Positions 1 through 56,368 of a stretch of DNA of 64,000 nucleotides are shown piece by piece. This stretch comes from Acholoe squamosa (lineage: Eukaryota; Annelida; Polychaeta; Phyllodocida; Polynoidae). The translations under genes were made by a program, and so were the position numbers. The DNA lies in contig OX439038.1 of NCBI GenBank assembly GCA_949317995.1, positions 73,480,659 to 73,544,658 of the forward strand. Reading direction: 5' to 3'. Below the pieces are notes generated by a model that did not search any database, was not told the origin of the DNA, and worked only from the letters and a program-made list of their open reading frames with translations. Numbering within the stretch: position 1 is the first letter of the stretch; every line of letters starts with the position of its first letter.

Positions 1-1008
1 GGTTGTGAACGGCGTCTCTGTGCTCTGAAAAAGGAACCGGAAGGGAAATTCCGTCTTTGAACATGTCAATGTTGCGATCCCTGAAAAATTTAGCGTGATT
101 ATTCAGCGCCTCTATGAAGGGTTTCAAGTCTTTGCTGTTGTAGTAGATCAAGTAATCTCTTCGGACCAAACTTTTTCACATTTGGCGTAGTCAGATTCAG
201 ACATCTTGGTGCCAGTCAGTTTGCTGTCAAATGCAGATCTTGGTGGAAGTGTTCTGTTATCCAGTTTCCTGGTAGATGTCATCCATTTGTAAGGAAAGTG
301 ACCTTTGTGCTGATTTCTGGTGAAAGCTAGTAAATAATTCGCATAGTTATAACCAGGTGCCAAATAGTTTACTACGTCCAAGAAAACAGTGTGCTGAGTG
401 TAAATCGCCAAGTATTGGTTACTGCTCTTTATATCGCTGAATTCTAAGACTGGAACTTGGCGGAGATATCTCAAAAGTCTCTTCTTCAGTTCAACTAAAG
501 GGTGTCTTTTAGGAGTTTCAGTGAAGTCGCTGCTGGGAGGACTGAATGCCTCCTCTAGGTGGAGAGCTTCATCTATCGTCTCGTCTAACTTCACTAACGT
601 CGACCGGTAAAGTTTTAGCGTTGCTTCCCTGATGACCTTGGCGGTGTCGTTTATGTAATTAAAAAATCTATCCAACAAGGGGTCGGAATCTGCGTCAGAC
701 TCTCTCACGAAGCAGACCGGACCTTCGTGTCCTGGAAAGTCGGATGCGACGCTAGCCGACAGAGGTGTGTGTTCCCACAGGACTGTCACGTGTTCGGTCG
801 ATGGTTGTTTGGCCGGTCTGAAGAAAGCTTCAAAATCGAAGGCGATTTTATAAGGGTACTTTTTTGAATTTCCGTCGGGAGGAAAAATGGAGAAATCTGC
901 TAGCACTTCAAAAATCGTTTTTGAATTTTGGTAGATCCCACCTACCTTCTTCCTGGCGACTTGTCTGCAATCAGAAAGCTGGTTCCTGTGTCTTTTCAGT
1001 AAGAACAT
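1..1008 (-). pseudogene. B-family DNA polymerase fragment, Polinton/adintovirus-like (N-terminal part)
   Basis: Reads leftward from an ATG at 1006-1008 as a 286-residue frame to a TGA at 148-150. A second frame, shifted by one base near 150-160, continues the same protein to the window edge. Visible motifs are FLDVVNYLAPG and FPYKWM in the first frame, then FIEALNNHAKFF and MFKDGISLP in the second. These resemble the stretch between the exonuclease domain and the palm of the protein-primed B-family polymerases carried by Polinton/Maverick elements and related adintoviruses. The Asp-containing palm motifs would lie beyond position 1 and are not seen. The enzyme would copy the element's linear genome from a protein primer. 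The one-base frame break suggests a decayed copy or a sequencing indel. No other element genes (integrase, ATPase, capsid) are visible to the right, so this is an edge of an element or a captured fragment. The family call is by recognition, not by search. Confidence 0.7.
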
Positions 1009-1064
1009 TCGTAGATGCCGGCGTATTCATTGACACCGTCCTGTGTCAGGAATTTCTGGGTTCT

Positions 1065-1379
1065 TCAACTATCGATGAAGAACTCCAATCTGGGGCCTGT
1101 GGAAGGTAAAGGTGCTGACGGTAGTGGTTGTGGTGGTAGTTCACATTTCACTACCGATTTTTTCTTCTTGGATGCCTGACCGTTGCCACTTTTGGTAAAC
1201 TTCCTCTTGATACCTGTAGAGGGTTTCAAAGGAGGAAGAGAAGGACCATCAGTAATAGCTGAATCAATAGCAGAACCAGCAACAAGAGGAGTGTCTGCGT
1301 CGCTATCTCGTGACTTCTTGGAAAAGGGATAACCACACGCCGTCGGTCGTGGAAGTCGAGAGGGAAAGAAAAAACTCAC
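1065..1379 (-). pseudogene. Low-complexity basic/proline-rich ORF next to the polymerase fragment
   Basis: A 104-residue frame on the same strand, just upstream of the polymerase fragment and in a different reading frame. It is rich in Pro, Ser and Lys, with a KKKK run and two PLPS-type repeats, and has no recognisable domain. It may be the disordered N-terminal extension of the polymerase gene separated by a frame break, or a small separate gene of the same element. No function is assigned. Confidence 0.25.
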
Positions 1380-1924
1380 TCCGACTCTGCTCGAGGTTGT
1401 CTATTCCCTATCAGCTATGATCTGGTTGTACTATGAGGTCCATCATCATGGCAGCATCGTGAACTGCCTTTCAGAATTCATAGTGGACCCTAAGTCCCCA
1501 GAGCTGGACCCATCCATAATCCGTCAGCCATTCCTGAGGGATTTCTGGGTATACAGTATACTGCTTCAGACTTCCTGGTCTATCCGTATATGGCGCTGGG
1601 CTTTGTCCAATCTCATTAGGTTCGGGTGAACAATGAGGTATTGGCTGTCAAAGGACGGATAATAATCCTCACTCACTCGATGTCGTCCTAGGGTTTTAGA
1701 ACCCGTCCTCTAGGAGCTTACCGTTGGCCTCAGCATCTGATTTTGCATGTTGGCTTCACCGGATTCCTTCATGACTGTATTGGATACTGTATCCCACACA
1801 GAATGGTGATCTCGACCTGGGTCATCATGACTTGGGGAGGTCAGCAACAGTGAAACCGGATTGCTACCCTGTCCCAGGTTGAAGTTCTTGAGATCATCGT
1901 CAAACTCCATCAATTCCTACTCAC
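1380..1924. other. Unassigned spacer between two minus-strand relics
   Basis: Only short unsupported frames occur here. A 67-residue minus frame at 1710-1913 shows no integrase zinc finger or DDE motif, so it does not extend the gypsy pol on its right. Nothing else was recognised. Confidence 0.4.
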
Positions 1925-4200
1925 CTACTCAGAGTTCTGGACTTCTAGCTCACTCCATTGCGCTAGAAATCGTCTCGTTTCCCTATTCTCCAGTGACGCA
2001 ATTGGTCTAGCTGGACATATACCCTTTGTTACTAATTGTAGGAGTTTAGCAGTAACCGAGTAAGCCTCTTGGAATTTCCTTATTGTGTCTAAGGACCAAT
2101 CCAATATACTGCCAATATGTCTTTCGTAAGGTATTTGAATCGAAGGTGTTACTGCTCTATGTATTCCACAATCAGTACAATTTGGACTATCACATTTCCG
2201 AAATGGTATTAGGGATAAGGCATCAGCATTTATATGCTTACTTCCTGCTTGATGCTGTATTTGACTATTCTCTAGCCCGAATTCTGAGAGATGTGCTAGC
2301 CATCTTCCCAACATTCCTTCAGTATCACGAAAGTTTAACAACCATTTTAATGATGAGTGCTCCATACGTAATGTAAAGTCAGTTCCCCATAAGAAATGTT
2401 TAAACTTCTTGGTTTATACAACGACGGCTAATAACTCCCGTTTAGTGGTACAATAGTTTTGTTGCGTTTTGCTCAATGTGTTGCTAGCAAATGCTATCGG
2501 GACCTTCACTTCACCTCGGACTTGGGAGAGGGCTGCCCCAATGCTTTCATTGCTAGCATCTGTATCCAGTATGAAATGTCCATCTTTAGATGGATATTGC
2601 AACACTGGAGTAGTCATGAACAAGGCTTTCAATTTCTCAAAAAGCTTGTTCTTGTTCGGTTTCCCATGGGAACTTATCCTTCCTACTACCGGGGGGTCCA
2701 ATTTGTTAAGACTTGTAATGGGTAACTCACCCGAGAATAATTCGGAATGAAGTCTCTGTAATGTGAACAGAATACCAGAAAAGATCTGATTTCCTTAGGA
2801 GTTTCCGGTAGTCCCCAGTCCGTTACTGCCCTTTTTTTTCTCGGGATCAGCTTTTATTCCATCATCAGCAATTATATGGCCCAAATAATTTATGGACTGT
2901 TTGAACAGGTTACATTTCCATGGTTTTAATTTTAAACCATTAGATATTATTCTTTCCAAAACTAGCTTGAGATTATTTAGACATTCTTCAAAGTTTTTTT
3001 CCAAATACAATAACACCATCAAGATATACAAGGCACCTTTTCCATAATAAATCAATTAAGGACAAGGGCTCCAGGTGGCCCAAAAATAAATTGACAAAGG
3101 ATTTCCTTGTAACTTGAAATATTTGTTCTTTATATAATGTGTCATTGAAATATGAAATAAAAAGTTGGGGTAGCAACACTACTTTCTTCAGTATTGGCGA
3201 TCATTTGTAGGACCCTTTAACATTGAGCTCAATGGGCCAATATCTAGCCACTTGGGATTTTGGAGGGATTTTTGTGAACATCTCAAAAACTGTACAAACA
3301 ATTTCTCTATAAAACTACAATTATGTCAATTGATGTATGCTAATCAAGATAAGATTGTAAAATCATATGGTTCCAAAGCTACTTTTTTTAGGTGAGTGCA
3401 AATAAAAGGGGGGTGGGCTCGTACTGCATAAGCCTATGGACTACATCCTCAGGGGGCTTCATAGTAATTTACAAAACTTTCTTCAAACCTAGTAAAAATG
3501 TTCACTTTTATCACTAGACTTAACTTTTGAACTAATAATGATAGAAACTTGCTTCAAAAAAATGCCAGATACCCCTCAATGAGCTAAATGCAGTATTTCA
3601 CAATACAGCCGCTAGGCACCTGCCGCTCTCGTCCTTAATAAAGTTTCCATCATGGATTCAAAGGTTGCCGGAGCGTTACATAGGCCAAAAGGCCTGACAT
3701 TATTCTGGAATAAACCAATATGACTGGATTCATTCCCACTTGCCAGTATCCGTGTTGAAGATCCAGGGTACAAAACCATTTATTTCCTCCTAATGAATCG
3801 ATTGTTTCATCAATTCTCGGCAATGGATACAAATTTTTGTCAAGCCATCTAATTCCCTATAGTCTATACAAAATCAAATAGACCAATCCTTTTTAGTCAC
3901 TATACATACGGGACTACTCCAGGGACTGTTGGAAGGAATGATAACATCTTGTTCCAACATCTTAGCTATTTCAGCTTTAGATATCTTCTTCTTCGGCAAA
4001 GCTAACCTCCTACAAGGGATCTTAAATGGAGCCACATCCCCTGTATCAATGGTATGCAATACCTTCAGGGTTTTCCATAAGGGTTCACCCGGTAGAGTAA
4101 ATGCTTTCTGATACTTTGTCAATAGTGGCGCCACACCGTAATACCTCCCAGATAGGTGCTGTAACCTATCTGACAAGTGGAGGGCTGACTCACCCACTGC
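1925..4200 (-). pseudogene. Decayed Ty3/gypsy pol (reverse transcriptase and RNase H), integrase missing
   Basis: On the minus strand, pieces in different frames follow the normal pol order. At about 4200-3874 lies the connector to RT, with IDTGDVAPFKIPCRRL, then NSPWSSPVCIVTKKD. At 3832-3650 come YPLPRIDETIDSL and CTLDLQHGYWQVGMNP, followed in another frame by PFGLCNAPATFE. At about 3070-2795 come CLVYLDGVIVFG (the catalytic YxDD reads YLDG) and NYLGHIIADDGIKADPEK. RNase H follows at 2701-2414 (DTDASNESIGAALSQ, TKRELLAVV) and 2365-1925 (HSSLKWL, then HQAGSKHINADALS). Gag, protease, integrase and LTRs are not seen. The relic has several frameshifts, a lost catalytic Asp and a foreign insertion inside RT, so it is old and inactive. 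Its sequence is clearly different from the gypsy element at 52 kb. Confidence 0.85.
3080..3625. repeat. Foreign insertion splitting the gypsy RT relic
   Basis: The RT coding match stops after PFGLCNAPATFE and the following few residues near 3625, then resumes at the YLDG motif near 3070. The roughly 550 bases between have no RT similarity and no coding frame. No clear terminal repeats were found, so the insert's class and exact ends are unknown. Confidence 0.45.
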
Positions 4201-4359
4201 GCCAAAGAACCATAATATATATAGGATATACCATACCTCTACACTTGTATTATAAATCCAAACATGACTTTGTGTGTTTACCACAACAATGAACTGTAGC
4301 AAGACATGACATTGGGGGCTGAAAGACTTTTTTAGTTGTTTCAGAGACAAACGTTCATT

Positions 4360-7300
4360 GTAAAAATTAAGTTAAAATACCATCACTATGCTGGCTAATT
4401 ATGATAAGTCCTCCAGAACCACATTCCCATTATACATGTGTGTCTGTTGTAACTCCATTCTTTTACAAGTTGAAGCTTGTGGTGAATATGACTCTCCTCC
4501 TGAAATGAGCCTCTCTATTGTAGGGGTAGCAGTGGCTGCCAATTCCTCCTAGTGGCACATGACCATTTGCTGCCTTTTACAGGGTGGGTCTTTGTGGTAT
4601 ACATATAAACCCAAATGAGTAGTTTTGACAACTTACTCCAATGAGAGGCAATCCTGTGGGTGGCTAATGCCTTTATCACCAAGTGACCATGGGAAGACAC
4701 GCCTTCTGGCAGTGCATTTGTGTATCACAGGATGAGTGTACCAAGCCTCCTGATGCTCTATAGCCTACTCAGTCCACTCAGGACAAAAAAAGGTCTCCAT
4801 TTTCTTGTCAAATGGGAGGGCACATGATCATCTGACCACACATGACCTGGGTATAGGTTGACCTGGTGGCTGCAATTATGGCAGCAAACAGACTGGAGCC
4901 CTTTTGCCACAGTGCCCTGTCATGTCCCAACCTTGTTCTCAGGGACTCTTAGTCTATAGATGGTTGTACAACTGCACACACAGACTTTAGGGATGCCATT
5001 CTCCTCCTATGGAACTATTAACAGTATTTTGTATGTGAGATGTACGGACAGAGAAACGACCATTGGTACTGATGAGTTCCTGTAACAAAAAACATCCATC
5101 TTAAATTCCCCAAGCAGACACTAACTGCCTTCAGCTCAATGTCATTTCATTTCCAGATTCAAGCAATGCAAGAAAATTATTGGTTATCCTGATTTTTATA
5201 TCAAAATATATGGAATCTGGATGGATCATGGACTGGAAGGGAAGAATTATTTTTGTTTTCTTTTTATGAGGACTGGATCAGATTATCCAATATACCACAG
5301 TGGGCACAGAGAACAATGGATTTCACACCTCTTATGTATTGCATACAGCCTATGGTATAAGTATAAGCTTGCTATTATACTTGGACAGTGTTGAAAGGGG
5401 TGTACAGCACAGGGGGCCTATATATCACTTACCTCTTACAATAACTTCTACGGTCAGCATGTCATGTCTAAGTGCAAAAACTTGTTTAATAACTTGTATC
5501 ATTTAATGTCATTCACATGATTCCGATATCTCTATTCTGCCTTTCTTCCAAACACTAGATTTATACAATTGGACAGACTACATACAGAGCAAACCATCAC
5601 TGGGGAGCATTCAAACCTGTTTGGCATTGTCACAACTTACCTAATTGGTGGTACATTGACAGTCATTTACCAACAATCACCCAAAACAATGATCCATTCC
5701 CATAAACAATAAATTACCTGATCCTTTATATATATATTTCTTAAGTACAGAATGGCTGTACCAATTGACAACAAATTGGCACCAAATCCCCTTGTGACCC
5801 TCCCCGCCAATTCCAGCCAAGCAGACAACAATTCACCTATATGTGTTGACAGTACAGCACATGCGCACTGATGAACCGATGGATGGCCAACACACAGAGG
5901 TTAACCACCTAATTCCAGCAGTGGCAGAAATGCCCAGGGAACAGGGTAAGAGGCATGGTTTTGGTGCAACAATCTCAAAAGTAGTCCCTAGGTCGTACAG
6001 AGTTTACGTCATGTGTGGTGGAGGGTATTGGCTGTTTACTAATGAGGTGGTAACAGGGCGCTTCCATGGTGTGGGGTGATAGAGGGCTGGGCATGAGTTA
6101 TACTTTCATTATTCGTTGATCATCTGTGTTGCTTGTGGATGGTAATGGTTTTATAAGCTAACTTGGGCAAATTATAGTGATCAAATGATGATATATTAAA
6201 CCGACTGCTTCATCTAAAGGTATGATATTTGGAAATAGTTTGTATGAATTAATGTAGAAATTTTTAAGAGAATAAGTAAATTTAAAGCATTCTGTCTTTC
6301 ATGCAAGGTCTATCTCATGATGAAATTAGTTTTGTCTGCCCTTCAGACATCTGCCACAGGGTGTTGATGTAGCGAGATATGTTAAAGGTGAAATTAAAAG
6401 AACCAAGAGTCAATGGGCATTGTTGAAGGCATGTATAAATATTGTTCACCTTTCCCCATTGTTAATGCAAGGCAAAAAGACATGTTATACTTCAGGCAAT
6501 ATAGCATATATCTTTTCCTGAAAATAGTTGTTGCGCAAGCTGATATAAAGAAAATATAACCAATACTGAGAAAGTTCTCATGATTCTTTTTTCCCCCAAA
6601 GTTTGAATGTCTCAAGGGCAATGACACATCGAGTATATACACTAAAACTACCTAAAGTGTACGTGAAAATATGTTTTTTTTTGCCTAAAAGATGAGTACA
6701 TAGACATTAAAAGAAGCTCATACAATTTGCCTGTTTTAAATAGAGGTATGGTAAATGTACCATGCTATTGTCAATGGACTATTCTATGTATTATAATTAT
6801 CAACGACATATTCAAACCAAGCTGACCAAGCTTCCCCTGTAGAATCCAAGGCTACCCTATTTTTAACCACCTGCGGATCCCCCACTGGAAGACATGATAT
6901 CATATGCTATTTTTAGCCTCACCTGCCCAGGTGACTCACTCCTGAGAGCAGCTCCCTCCCTCCTACTCTGGATTGGACTGGATCCAACCAGGGGCTGAGC
7001 TGCTCATTCCCCAGACTGGGTCACTGTGCACTTCCAGAAATAGCACATGAGTAACACTGAGTGGGACTCCCTTTATAAACAGGCAGAACCCACTCAGGGT
7101 ATCTTATTCTTCTCCAAAGCTAGACCCTACGACACTCAGGTGCCTTGGCCGAAGGATAAAGCTTGGTCTGACTGGCTAGTACCATACTGTTATACCATAT
7201 TGACTACTCTCATGCCAATCTTACAATGAAGCTGAATCATCAACTGAATTGTCTGGACTCCTGTTACCTCACTTCATTACATGTAACGACCTGTTGACAC

Positions 7301-33382: not shown

Positions 33383-33602
33383 TGTAGGGTCAGCGGAAAA
33401 TGTCATGGAGAAACCGGGACTCGAACCCGGGACCCTCCAACTTCGAAGCGGAAGCTCTACCCCTGAGCTACTTCCCATGGCCTGACATTCTCTACCTTCC
33501 AACTACCCTGGATCGGTATGGTATACATAGGGGGAGTGACACAATCAAGTGAACAGTCCCTCTGAAGGCTCTGCGCACCCGACGGGGGAATGAACCCCTA
33601 CA
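33383..33602 (-). repeat. 220-bp LTR of the TRIM-like unit (3' copy on minus strand)
   Basis: Nearly identical to 33849-34069 across its length. Differences include GGGTCAGCGG versus TGGTCAGCGG at one end and single bases in the tRNA-like part. It starts TGTAGGG and ends CCCTACA on the plus strand. Confidence 0.85.
33407..33477 (-). tRNA. tRNA-like gene in LTR, copy 1
   Basis: Same 71-base sequence as the copy in the other LTR, with an intact D arm (GCTC/GAGC), A-box and B-box. The first acceptor base is T instead of G, so that pair is lost. Each copy thus has a small defect the other lacks. Confidence 0.55.
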
Positions 33603-33610
33603 CTCCTCCC
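33603..33610 (-). other. Polypurine tract of the TRIM-like unit
   Basis: Minus strand GGGAGGAG lies directly before the TGTAGGGG start of the second LTR, the position required for plus-strand priming. Confidence 0.6.
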
Positions 33611-33833
33611 AACCAGCTTCAACCGTATCCCGCCAGAACCGGTCCTCCAGTCCAGTCTGAACGGTACCAGTACTCGGTCACACACAGCCTTACGCAGCTC
33701 CTGTTCCCAGGTGCGACTGTGGGTGCCACCTGTTTCCAAGTCTCCCAGCACTAGCAAGTTGAAGTGCTTGTCTATACCATACCGGCCCAGGTACCGAGCT
33801 CTCTAAAGATCCTCCTTGCGAGGCAGGACCACT

Positions 33834-33847
33834 CGGTTTCTCCACCA
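33834..33847 (-). other. Primer-binding site matching the LTR-encoded tRNA
   Basis: Plus strand reads CGGTTTCTCCACCA, identical to the 3' end of the tRNA-like sequence plus discriminator A and CCA. On the minus strand it is the complementary TGGTGGAGAAACCG, one base inside the LTR, where a minus-strand primer site is expected. Confidence 0.75.
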
Positions 33848-33848
33848 C

Positions 33849-34069
33849 TGTAGTGGTCAGCGGAAAATGTCATGGAGAAACCGGGACTCGAACCCGGGAC
33901 CCTCCAACTTCGAAGCGGAAGCTTTACCCCTGAGCTACTTCCCCTGGCCTGACATTCTCTACCTTCCAACTACCCTGGATCGGTATGGTATACATAGGGG
34001 GAGTGACACAATCAAGTGAACAGTCCCTCTGAAGGCTCTGCGCACCCGACGGGGGAATGAACCCCTACA
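33849..34069 (-). repeat. 221-bp LTR of the TRIM-like unit (5' copy on minus strand)
   Basis: Starts TGTAGTGGTCAGCGG and ends GAACCCCTACA on the plus strand. Its outer end is also the outer end of the 2.5-kb insertion and is followed by the CATA duplication. Confidence 0.85.
33874..33944 (-). tRNA. tRNA-like gene in LTR, copy 2 (CGA in anticodon loop)
   Basis: Minus strand, 71 bases. Acceptor arm GGGGAAG pairs fully with TTTCTCC (two G-U). A-box TAGCTCAGGGG and B-box GGGTTCGAGTCCC are intact, and the T arm CCGGG/CCCGG is perfect. The D arm has one mismatch (GCTC/AAGC). The loop TTCGAAG would present CGA, but the anticodon stem has one mismatch and the variable loop is only 5 bases, unlike a standard tRNA-Ser. 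The CCA end is not encoded here. It is best read as an RNA polymerase III-competent tRNA-like sequence, not a proven decoding tRNA. Confidence 0.6.
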
Positions 34070-52425: not shown

Positions 52426-52714
52426 AGCTAGACAAGTGGACATCAATGACAAGTGCAGCTAAGTGAAACTCAACTCAAACTGATGTTTTGAAACTGTCAC
52501 TGTCAGTCACTCAACTAGGTCAAGTTGTGAACTCAGCAATACCAGTGTCTGTGTGTGTTTACTACTGACAACTACTCAGAATTGTTGTCATATGAACTAT
52601 TGTGTAGGACTCATTGACTCTACATAGGCCTATGCTTTACTCAGAAGTGCAACAGTGTCCATAAGTGAAAGTGCCACTCAAAATTTTGGCTAAAACTCAG
52701 AATAGTAGTTCAAC

Positions 52715-53570
52715 ATGGGTGATCAAAAGGCTTCTGGGGAAATTCCCTTTTATCCAACCTTTGATGAAAAATCAGCAGATCTGTCTCAGGAATGGGAAGA
52801 CTGGCTAGAGGGGTTGGAAGCTATGTTTGCACTGCAATCTTTTACGAAAGACTATGAAAACGAGGAGAAATATGACAAACTGTTTTATTATCTCAGAACT
52901 ACTAGGAAAATTCTCAAGAAATTGGACAATAATGGGGTTGTAACTAGAAGCTATAAGTTAGCTAAGGAGGCACTCACCAAGCATTTTTCCCCTGGAAAAA
53001 CCTCATTTGCCCTCCTGCATAAACTCTATCACACTAGACAGGAAAAGGGGGAGACTATGGATAGTTTCTACCATCGTGTCTGTGATGTCATGGACTCGCT
53101 AGATCTGACAAAGAAGAAGGTGGAAGAATTTGAGGAACTTCTAATTATTGCACAACTCGTAAACTGAACTCACAATGATGGCATCCGGCGTAAAACTTTG
53201 CGCACTCATGGGGCAATAAATCTGACGGAATTCCTCGATCGGGCTCGAAGTGATGAGTCCGCAATCAAAGAGTCGTCCGAAATTAGTGGTACAGCTAACG
53301 ACGCGGCGGCTGCTCTTGCAGTGAACAAGCATCACAATAAGAAGAAATCGGGTCAAGACTCTAAGTCTGCGGGATCGTCCCAGAAGAAGAAGACATCCGC
53401 ACCAGCTCAGTCAGGCAAATGTCCATTCTGCGGTGGTGGTCCGCATGACCGTCATCGTTGTCCTGCAAAGAACTCAGTCTGCCATAATTGTAAAATTAAA
53501 GGACACTTCATCAAGGTTTGCAAGAAACCGAAGTCCGTTAATGAGGTCGTCGAGAACGATAACTACTCGG
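52715..53570 (+). pseudogene. gag: gag (nucleocapsid with two CCHC knuckles), broken by a stop
   Basis: Starts at ATG 52715 (GGTGATCAAAAGGC follows) and runs 150 codons to a TGA at 53165-53167. The same frame then continues without a shift into the nucleocapsid part, which has two zinc knuckles of form CX2CX4HX4C at about 53420-53461 and 53480-53522, preceded by a Lys/Ser-rich linker. Gag packages the element RNA in virus-like particles. The first part has the charged helical composition of retrotransposon capsid proteins (EWEDWLEG, YHTRQEKGETMDSFYHR). The frame is open on both sides of the stop, so it is most simply a point nonsense mutation. Read-through is possible in retroelements, but here the stop lies inside gag rather than at the gag-pol border. 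Confidence 0.85.
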
Positions 53571-54340
53571 AGATACTGCAGACGCAAGAGACCTTCCTCG
53601 GTTCAGTCGACACTCCCCAGGGGGGGCTGTCTAAGAAGGTCACAGAGGTCGTCATCAATGGTATCCCCACACCTATGCGCATCGACACCGGAGCAGAGGC
53701 TACACTCATAGATAGCCAACTCCATGCCGAAAAGTTCAGCTCGGAGGAACTGCTGGCCTCCGACTGTGTGTTCCGGGGTACAAAACAAGGCCAGTTTTCA
53801 GCACTAGGCTTCTTTAATGGAGTCATTCAGCATGGACAGAAAAAGGTCAAAGAGCGGATCTATGTCATAGAAAATGCATCTAACCTTCTCAGCTGCAGAT
53901 CATCGACAGCACTCGGACTGGTAGTATTCACATGCTCTGTCTCACAGTATAAGGAGCAATACCCAACATTGTTCAATGGCCTGGGTAAACTCGAGAAGAC
54001 CTACAAGATTCAACTCAGGGATGACGCAGAGCCATATGAGGTTATGACTCCTCGACGCGTGTCCATCGCAATGCATGACAAGGTAGGCAAGGAGCTCGAA
54101 CGCCTACAGAATCTTGGAGTCATCACTCCGGTCAGCCAACCGACGGACTGGTGTGCACCAGTCGTGGTAGTTCCGAAGTCGAACGGAGACGTTTGCTTGT
54201 GCGTGGACCTCACCAGACTCAATAAGGCTGTTAAGAGACCTAGGTATGTGTTGCCATCAGTTGACTATGTTCTTGGACAAATCGGTGATGCCAAAGTATT
54301 CTCCAAACTCGATGCCAATAGTGGTTATTATCAGGTTGAA
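53571..54340 (+). pseudogene. pol: pol: protease and first half of reverse transcriptase
   Basis: Continues in the gag frame. Protease shows the aspartic active-site motif RIDTGAEATLID at about 53675-53713. RT begins near 54000 with YKIQLRDDAEPYEV and contains NLGVITPVSQPTDWCAPVVV, then CVDLTRLNKAVKRP and FSKLDANSGYYQVE, the first catalytic Asp region. The frame is lost near 54338-54346: the stretch leading to PFGITSAPEFYQ is in another frame. Protease would mature the polyprotein and RT would copy the RNA to DNA. Confidence 0.9.
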
Positions 54341-55271
54341 TTCTCCTCACTACATTCATCACTACCCATGGTAGGTTTGCCTACAACCGAATGCCATTTG
54401 GTATCACCTCAGCACCAGAGTTTTACCAGAAACAAGTCTCCAACATCATTGCCGGACTCCCAGGAGTTGTATGTCTCATGGATGACATCATGATATCTGG
54501 TAAAGATGAAGCTGAGCACGATCAGCGTCTACATGCAACGCTCAGTAGACTCGCAGCTGCAGGAATCACACTCAACAAAGACAAATGTGTCTTCAAACAG
54601 TCATCTATCAGCTTCCTGGGTCAGATCATATCAGCTGAAGGCATCAAGGCCGACCCAGAGAAGGTAGCAGCGATCAAGGAGATGAGTATTCCTTCCGACG
54701 TATCGGAACTCCGCCGTTTTATCGGCATGGTGAATCATCTGGGGAAGTTCACACCAGACCTCTCTACGGTAATTCAGCCACTATGTGAACTCCTAAGCAC
54801 CAAGAGTGAATGGTTCTGGGGACCATCTCAACAGGAGGCATTTGACAACATCAAGGACATACTAAGCAATACTCCTGTACTGGCACTGTACAAAGCCGAC
54901 CTTGAGACCAAGGTATCCGCCGACTCGTCGTCGTACGGACTAGGGGCAGTGCTGATGCAGAAAAACAACTCCATTTGGCGTCCTGTTGCCTATGCTTCCA
55001 GATCTCTCTCCGAGACTGAATGCTGCTACGCTCAGATAGAAAAGGAAGCTCTAGCAAGCACTTGGCGAGCGAGAAGTTCCGTGATTACCTTATCGGTAAA
55101 CACTTCACTCTAGAGACAGACCATAAGCTGCTAATACCTCTTCTTGGTTCTAAAGACTTGGACCTGCTCACTCCAAGAATCCAGAGGTTTAGAATGCGTC
55201 TTATGTGGTACGACTACAGTATCATCCATGTGCCGGGCAAGGAACTCTATACAGCTGACACCCTATCCTGA
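54341..55271 (+). pseudogene. pol: pol: second half of RT and RNase H
   Basis: Open from about 54341. It contains MPFGITSAPEFYQ, the catalytic motif CLMDDIMI (about 54470-54493), FLGQIISAEGIKADPEKV, then RNase H from about 54900 with SADSSSYGLGAVLMQ and YASRSLSETECCYAQIEKEA. A one-base loss near 55065 (in TTGGCGAGCGAG) shifts frame, and EKFRDYLIGKHFTLETDHK continues in the next frame to HVPGKELYTADTLS, closing with TGA at 55269-55271 where an Arg codon is usual in this motif. RNase H removes template RNA during reverse transcription. Confidence 0.9.
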
Positions 55272-56368
55272 GCCCCAGGCACAGGGCCACTCGCATCGTC
55301 ATCCCATCATCTCTTTGCCCAGACATCCTCAGTAAGTTACACGAAGGTCATCAAGGTATCACCAAGTGTCGTCAGCTGGCACGAGACAGTGTTTGGTGGC
55401 CCGGATGTAGCACAGATGTAGAAGAGTTAATCTCGAGATGTCATCACTGCCGGATCAAGAATCCGAACTACATGGAACCACTGATTCCATCTACTCTACC
55501 AGACCATCCATGGCAAAAGGTTGCCACAGACCTGTTCCAGCTAGGAGAGGTACACTACATCGTTGTCGTAGATTTCTACTCCAGGTTTGCTTTCTACAAG
55601 AAACTAGAATCTACAACTTCGAATACCATTGTTGAGACTATGAAGTCGATCTTCGCAGATCAAGGCATCCCTCAAATAGTGTGTTCAGACAATGGGCCTC
55701 AATATTCAAGCCAAGACTTTCAGAAATTCGCTAAAGAGTATGGATTCCTCCATATTACTAGCTCACCAGGGCATCCCTCCGGGAACGGTGAAGCCAAAAG
55801 GGCAGTCCGCACTCTAAAGGACATCATCAAAGCACCTGATCCTTATATTGCACTCCTTAATCTGAGAAACTCACCAATCAGAAATGGGTTTAGCCCAGCG
55901 CAATTGCTCATGGGACGTCGCCTTAACACTAAAATCCCAATCCTTCCATCTAAATTGGGAATAAACCCTCCAGATATGGACACCATCCGACAACGCGAGG
56001 AGGAATATAAGCGCAAGCTAAAGGAAAACTTTGATAACGATCACAGAGCACATGATCTCACTCCACTCAAACCAGGAGATGAGGTGTGGTCGTATATAGT
56101 TCAAACGCCTAAGAAGACTCTTGTGCGAAACAGAGTCCAGATGAAGGAACTGCCAGCTCCACAGTCAGCTCCACAGCCAGCTCCACAGCCAGTTCAACAG
56201 GCATCTCAGCCGGTGGAAACTCCACCAGTACCGCCAACACCTACTACACCAAAGGCAGTACCAGCTAGTCCAGCCAAATCAGTGACTCCTAGCCAATCAC
56301 AGTCACCTAAGATCACTCGTACCAGATTGGGTCGAGAGATCCGTAAACCAGACAGGTTTAAAGACTAG
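55272..56368 (+). pseudogene. pol: pol: integrase with a Lys at the catalytic Glu position, Pro-rich tail
   Basis: A third frame opens immediately after the RNase H stop. The zinc-binding HHCC segment is LHEGHQGITKCRQLA...CHHC (about 55330-55455). The catalytic core has Asp in ATDLFQLG (codon 55529) and Asp in CSDNGPQYSS (codon 55688). In the third motif, SGNGEAKRAVRTLK, the position 36 residues after the second Asp is the Lys codon AAA at 55796-55798, where Ty3/gypsy integrases have Glu; the Glu in this motif sits two residues early. The C-terminal part ends in repeated APQPAPQP, PVPPTPTTP and SQSQSP segments and a basic tail to 56368. If the alignment is right, this copy cannot integrate by itself. 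Confidence 0.85.

Follow-up and report, generated by a model that had tools for sequence, protein, structure and literature searches.

Introduction

Miniature elements whose long terminal repeats (LTRs) carry tRNA-like sequences have been described as Helenus, or TRIMp3 (Kojima 2024, PMC10886601), in the sole survey of tRNA-bearing LTR elements that our literature search found. In the sections of that survey drawn on here, Helenus elements are 311 to 1263 bp long, have A and B boxes, a primer-binding site (PBS) and a polypurine tract (PPT), and attain LTR numbers that can run into the thousands in one genome; the animal elements are flanked by 4-bp target duplications, and one zebrafish family forms tandem arrays. 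RNA polymerase III transcription is expected there and was not demonstrated, animal Helenus elements are described as mobilised by Gypsy elements that share their PBS, and annelids are missing from the host table. In the families described there, the LTR tRNA was found not to be complementary to the PBS and was judged not to prime (PMC10886601). Here we describe a 687-bp element of this kind on the minus strand of a 64,000-nucleotide stretch of the genome of the polynoid annelid Acholoe squamosa (assembly GCA_949317995.1, contig OX439038.1, positions 73,480,659 to 73,544,658; the whole stretch is called the window below, and positions within it are given), at 33383-34069. Judging from the sequence, we suggest, with a probability of roughly 60%, that it is a Helenus/TRIMp3-kind miniature element in which a tRNA-Ala-derived gene in the LTRs supplies the family's own primer for reverse transcription.

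Other miniature elements share parts of this anatomy. Cassandra and Ajax are terminal-repeat retrotransposons in miniature (TRIMs) with 5S rRNA sequence in their LTRs (PMC10886601). They resemble the worm element in placing an RNA polymerase III gene sequence in the LTR of a miniature element, but the sequence is 5S rRNA there and a tRNA in the worm, and the parts of the survey used here tell of no link between LTR RNA and PBS for either. No 5S rRNA was found in the worm LTRs, as Rfam at the gathering cut-off gives only two tRNAs in the whole window. The bivalve biv-TRIM has terminal repeats of 202-218 bp, a short interior, a PPT, solo repeats and tandem arrays, and is similar to the worm element in all these respects; in the sections available to us, however, no tRNA is told of in its repeats and a canonical PBS could not be assigned with certainty, whereas the worm element has both (PMC6934838).

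Results

The PBS and the tRNA in the LTRs

The 5' LTR (33849-34069, 221 bp) and the 3' LTR (33383-33602, 220 bp), both TGTAG...CTACA, are direct repeats with 99% identity across 216 bases, and three sites differ between them in the window copy. The length of 220 bp given for both in a preliminary description of this DNA holds for the 3' LTR. ARAGORN predicts one tRNA per LTR, at 33873-33944 in the 5' LTR and at 33406-33477 in the 3' LTR, each on the minus strand and in the sense of the element, with Rfam RF00005 scores of 46.5 and 42.4 bits, respectively, against a cut-off of 29. The element is therefore read on the minus strand. The tRNA-like sequence described earlier is thus real, with a length of 72 bases instead of 71.

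The PBS, TGGTGGAGAAACCG, occupies 33834-33847 on the minus strand, one base in from the LTR edge. Its complement, CGGTTTCTCCACCA, is identical at all 14 positions to the 3'-terminal 11 bases of the LTR tRNA followed by CCA, and the CCA is not encoded in the DNA after the LTR tRNA. A simple calculation gives about 4^-11 as the probability that 11 bases match at one fixed site. A chance match was considered and rejected, given 11 bases plus CCA that are retained across many copies. The claim that the PBS corresponds exactly to the 3' end of the LTR tRNA plus CCA is therefore confirmed, and it is strengthened by the other copies and by the covariation between two families described below.

In the ARAGORN cloverleaf the acceptor stem (with G3:U70), the D stem and the T stem pair, in agreement with the three compatible arms noted previously, and the anticodon stem contains one mismatch, C31-U39. 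The first acceptor pair is missing in the 3' LTR tRNA and one D pair in the 5' LTR tRNA. The A box (around 33927-33937) and the B box (around 33884-33894) of the 5' LTR tRNA, on the minus strand, were placed by eye. ARAGORN assigns the anticodon CGA, but a serine tRNA was rejected because it conflicts with the Ala-like acceptor stem, and we call the gene alanine-like by its likeness to host genes; G3:U70, which we take to be an alanine identity element, is present in the LTR tRNAs. The tRNA ends in TTTCTCCA, and a short trailer with TTTT follows (minus strand, 33864-33867 in the 5' LTR, likely an RNA polymerase III terminator, and 33397-33400 in the 3' LTR). TTTT also follows the tRNA in 16 family B LTRs and in 20 further LTRs.

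Among 74 distinct junctions between LTR and PBS, the 14-base match is exact in 50 and has at most one mismatch in 69. The junctions come from the loci at hand, with identical contexts merged and 20 host tRNA loci left out; they were counted with a tolerance of one change for the LTR end and for the first 8 bases of the PBS, which leaves more decayed junctions uncounted. The host tRNA-Ala ends that were read are matched by none of the 74.

A second family with a joint change in tRNA and PBS

Three copies of the window's family (family A) contain a different tRNA block in the 5' LTR, GGGGATG...TGTCTCCA. A genome search with this block revealed a second abundant family (family B), with 3026 first-look candidates, of which the best 40 were scored, and at least 41 matches. 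Family B has LTRs of 249 bp and interiors of 209 to 249 bp, and 4-bp duplications flank seven of the nine elements read whole. Its tRNA reaches 68.5 bits in Rfam in both LTRs of locus L062.

Before CCA, the A-type tRNA ends in CGGTTTCTCCA and the B-type tRNA in CGGTGTCTCCA, and the family B PBS, TGGTGGAGACACCG, is the complement of the latter. The change lies at tRNA position 67; the 6:67 pair is A-U in family A and U-G in family B, so that the acceptor stem of B still pairs because position 6 changes along with position 67. Sixteen B loci were fetched, 11 of them with an interior; the PBS carries the B base in 11/11 and matches exactly in 10/11, or in 12/12 and 11/12 when L062 is added. Counting hybrids, a B PBS stands opposite 12 of the 15 B-type tRNAs read next to a PBS. 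The 74 junctions comprise 59 with A tRNA and A PBS, 10 with B and B, three with B tRNA and A PBS, none with A tRNA and B PBS, and two others, namely L038 (mutated) and L150 (without a PBS). A pattern search across the genome for LTR ends whose adjoining PBS has G or T at the variable base gave no match.

The three hybrid copies, L033, L042 and L057, combine a 5' LTR bearing the B block with a 3' LTR bearing the A block and with a PBS of A type. Each is flanked by 4-bp duplications, and in two of them, L033 and L042, the differences between the LTRs are almost confined to the tRNA block. Because standard reverse transcription normally leaves both LTRs alike, these copies need either conversion after insertion or intermolecular strand transfer.

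Further subfamilies

A pattern consisting of the A-type tRNA end and a non-T trailer base occurs at 2031 places in the genome, and its reversed control at none. Many of the first 100 places are paired, 412-741 bp apart. From these pairs, all on one contig and carrying the A-type end by selection, we read 20 5' LTRs. TTTT is present in every one of them, as is, owing to the selection, the 3' part of the tRNA, and 19 have the 5' acceptor strand GGGGAAG. These LTRs belong to other subfamilies, and they are followed by an exact PBS in 15 cases, a one-base variant in four and no PBS in one. The interiors of L134 and L136 appear unlike that of family A directly after the PBS.

Host tRNA genes

A tRNA-Ala pattern has 214 matches in the host genome, many of them within a tandem array on contig C12. 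Twenty host tRNA-Ala genes, taken from 100 of the 214 places and including one from the array, were read; their ends are GGGTTCTCCA, GGCATCTCCA and, in one gene, GGCGTCTCCA. The A-type or B-type end occurs in none of these 20, and each has one to two mismatches to the A PBS and to the B PBS. By eye, the gene ending in GGCGTCTCCA (L112) has one mismatch to the B PBS and two to the A PBS. A host tRNA with a closer fit to the PBS than that of the LTR tRNA, a possibility raised in the preliminary description, was thus found in none of the 20 genes read of the 214 matches. Among the matches listed, the tRNA-Ala-AGC tandem array is large (C12:51.451-51.477 Mb), with a spacing of mostly about 290 to 800 bp.

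Copies and anatomy of the element

The host genome is 1.48 Gb, with 18 large contigs among those read. Searches with the LTR and with the interior gave 1512 and 2178 first-look candidates, respectively; the best 40 of each were scored, and those of the LTR are all 98-100% identical. The copies are accordingly best-scoring matches to the window and not a random sample. The preliminary description had proposed a search for copies with the same layout and target duplications. Many were found, and 36 of the 47 distinct complete LTR-interior-LTR copies of A type have target duplications of at least 4 bp, one of which is a 6-bp TA run; among the 11 without, L025, L043 and L052 have an LTR end shortened by the alignment. 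No target duplication flanks the copy in the window. Duplications of 4 bp flank all four complete single LTRs, and LTR-interior-LTR-interior-LTR arrays are also present. A tandem duplication of unrelated DNA was excluded by the target duplications, the PPT and PBS, and the dispersed copies. The loci L015 (family A) and L125 (family B), on different contigs, have the same eight flanking bases on each side, ATTCATTG on the left and ATTGTAAA on the right.

The interior (33603-33848, minus strand) is 246 bp long and non-coding, with a purine tract and a PBS, as had been described. The PPT, GGTTGGGAGGAG, lies at 33603-33614 on the minus strand and adjoins the 3' LTR. No open reading frame of at least 150 amino acids in the window overlaps the 687-bp element. 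With the PBS and the PPT at the ends of the interior and a length below 1 kb without coding capacity, it conforms to the definition of TRIM and Helenus elements. Comparison of copies also showed a hypervariable block within the interior (33688-33716, minus strand), found as well in 47 copies, with a variation of 0.13 minor alleles per site and copy against 0.011 (45 interiors). This block surrounds a conserved CCTGGGAACAGG core with the potential to form a hairpin, and its flanks seem by eye to change pairwise; it is possibly a dimerisation or packaging hairpin.

Other features of the window and the assembly

A Gypsy-type retrotransposon at 52709-56368 of the window has two frames with reverse transcriptase, RNase H and integrase domains, and no Pfam match was obtained in the two frames that precede these. 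Three long frames at 148-4371 on the minus strand, with one RNase H-like domain, are probably another decayed retroelement. Elsewhere, the 15.6-kb contig C63, mitochondrial judging by its frames, carries, on one strand, nad4L-nad4 and then nad3-nad2-cox1-cox2-cox3-nad6-cob-atp6 (named by eye from the translations), presumably the usual annelid order. A long alternating repeat of short units, seen as repetitive frames, occupies 4417-4863 of L084, on the mitochondrial contig.

Discussion

LTR retroelements are thought to rely mostly on host tRNA primers, and the PBS of a retroelement is normally rewritten through copying of the primer 3' end. Since the PBS of the worm element equals the end of the family's own tRNA and not that of the host Ala genes read, the LTR tRNA is indicated as the primer. 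A more specific version of this proposal, for which the odds seem even to us, is that a single LTR-borne RNA polymerase III unit is the source of both primer tRNA and template RNA, through termination or read-through at TTTT, and that the PBS co-evolves with the LTR tRNA. RNA polymerase III would initiate at the LTR tRNA, and the majority of transcripts would end at TTTT and be matured into CCA-tailed tRNA. Read-through transcripts that begin in the first LTR and stop at the TTTT of the second, the 3' LTR, would serve as the template, whose PBS would be annealed and primed by a tRNA from the same or another copy. The proteins would be provided by an autonomous partner, probably a Gypsy-group element; the 4-bp target duplications are compatible with mobilisation by Gypsy elements. 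The PBS of each family would then record the last primer used.

It is also conceivable, though unlikely, that a host tRNA primes and that its sequence was captured into the LTR, with a separate host variant behind each of the two families. Such an origin suits the Ala-like character of the LTR tRNAs, with their G3:U70, and the identity of the B tRNA to host Ala-TGC, and likewise to host Ala-CGC, at 62 of the 73 columns aligned. As the 20 places read out of the 2031 were all picked as pairs, the others may include a host tRNA with the A-type end, and so may the Ala genes beyond the 20 read. Capture nevertheless requires two matching host variants, and neither the A nor the B end was seen in those 20 host genes. 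Somewhat less probable is a hairpin in the genomic RNA, in which the tRNA 3' end in R pairs with the PBS about 25 bases downstream and functions in packaging or, after cleavage behind the tRNA, in priming in cis, a process loosely comparable to the self-priming of Tf1. Folding of the RNA from tRNA to PBS does predict this hairpin (-45.8 kcal/mol, z -2.4 for A; -42.9 kcal/mol, z -2.0 for B), but it follows from the match and so lends no independent support, and the TGG of the PBS is left unexplained, as its partner CCA is not encoded in the DNA.

The least probable of the explanations, and a rather improbable one, is an ordinary Helenus element whose LTR tRNA is a promoter alone and whose PBS match reflects common descent without function. 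The Helenus families for which complementarity is addressed in the parts of the survey used here lack it (PMC10886601), and mutants at tRNA base 66 without a PBS change and a PBS as variable as the rest of the interior fit such a view. Against it stand the 50 exact matches and the 69 with at most one mismatch among the 74 junctions, and the presence of the family B change on the tRNA and PBS sides alike.

Priming by the family's own LTR tRNA also has to be set against several observations that do not favor it. Transcription of the LTR tRNA, its CCA-tailing and its use as a primer are deduced from DNA. The complementarity of the PBS ends after 14 bases, the anticodon stem of family A is imperfect, and the tRNA folded by energy on its own adopts no cloverleaf in A (z -1.3) or B. 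However many copies carry it, the covariation concerns one position and one family split and is thus a single evolutionary event, and in the hybrids L033, L042 and L057, three of the 15 B-type tRNAs stand opposite a PBS of A type. A pattern search for other bases at position 66 of the tRNA gave just nine places in the genome, and none of the nine has the complementary PBS change (A PBS in seven, B PBS in two); the end is that of host Ala-AGC in four and of host Ala-TGC/CGC in one, with the PBS unchanged. These variants look like mutated single copies and give no support to covariation.

Variation along the element, expressed as minor alleles per site and copy in 106 LTRs and 45 interiors (hits below 93% identity excluded), is mixed in this respect. 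Variation is lowest in the final 8 bases of the tRNA, with 0.0012 against 0.0089 in U3, but the 5' acceptor strand (0.0229), the D arm (0.0382) and the T arm (0.0195) exceed U3, and the PBS (0.0143) shows no less variation than the remaining interior (0.0108). Because these other parts of the tRNA and the PBS are not low in variation, it is the tRNA 3' end alone that looks guarded in the copies compared.

Tf1 likewise draws its primer from the element itself, but it self-primes with the initial bases of the mRNA that it encodes and not with a tRNA with CCA. The worm element would differ from Tf1 in using a CCA-tailed tRNA instead of the mRNA start. A Tf1-like primer would be the 5' end of the element's RNA; the fold-back predicted for the worm element pairs bases about 60 into the tRNA. 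By anatomy the element is a Helenus-type TRIM: short and non-coding, with an LTR tRNA containing A and B boxes, a PBS and a PPT, 4-bp duplications and arrays. It differs from Helenus, as described in the sections of the survey drawn on here, in that its PBS matches the LTR tRNA exactly and covaries with it (PMC10886601). The preliminary description singled out this self-match as the unusual part, which stands as new relative to Helenus in the same sections, but it missed that miniature LTR elements bearing tRNAs had already been described (PMC10886601).

Within one genome, the match between LTR tRNA and PBS is thus found in several subfamilies, and the PBS and the tRNA differ jointly between two families. 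This has a bearing on how elements switch primers, and it illustrates how mobile elements can fill a genome with tRNA-like genes.
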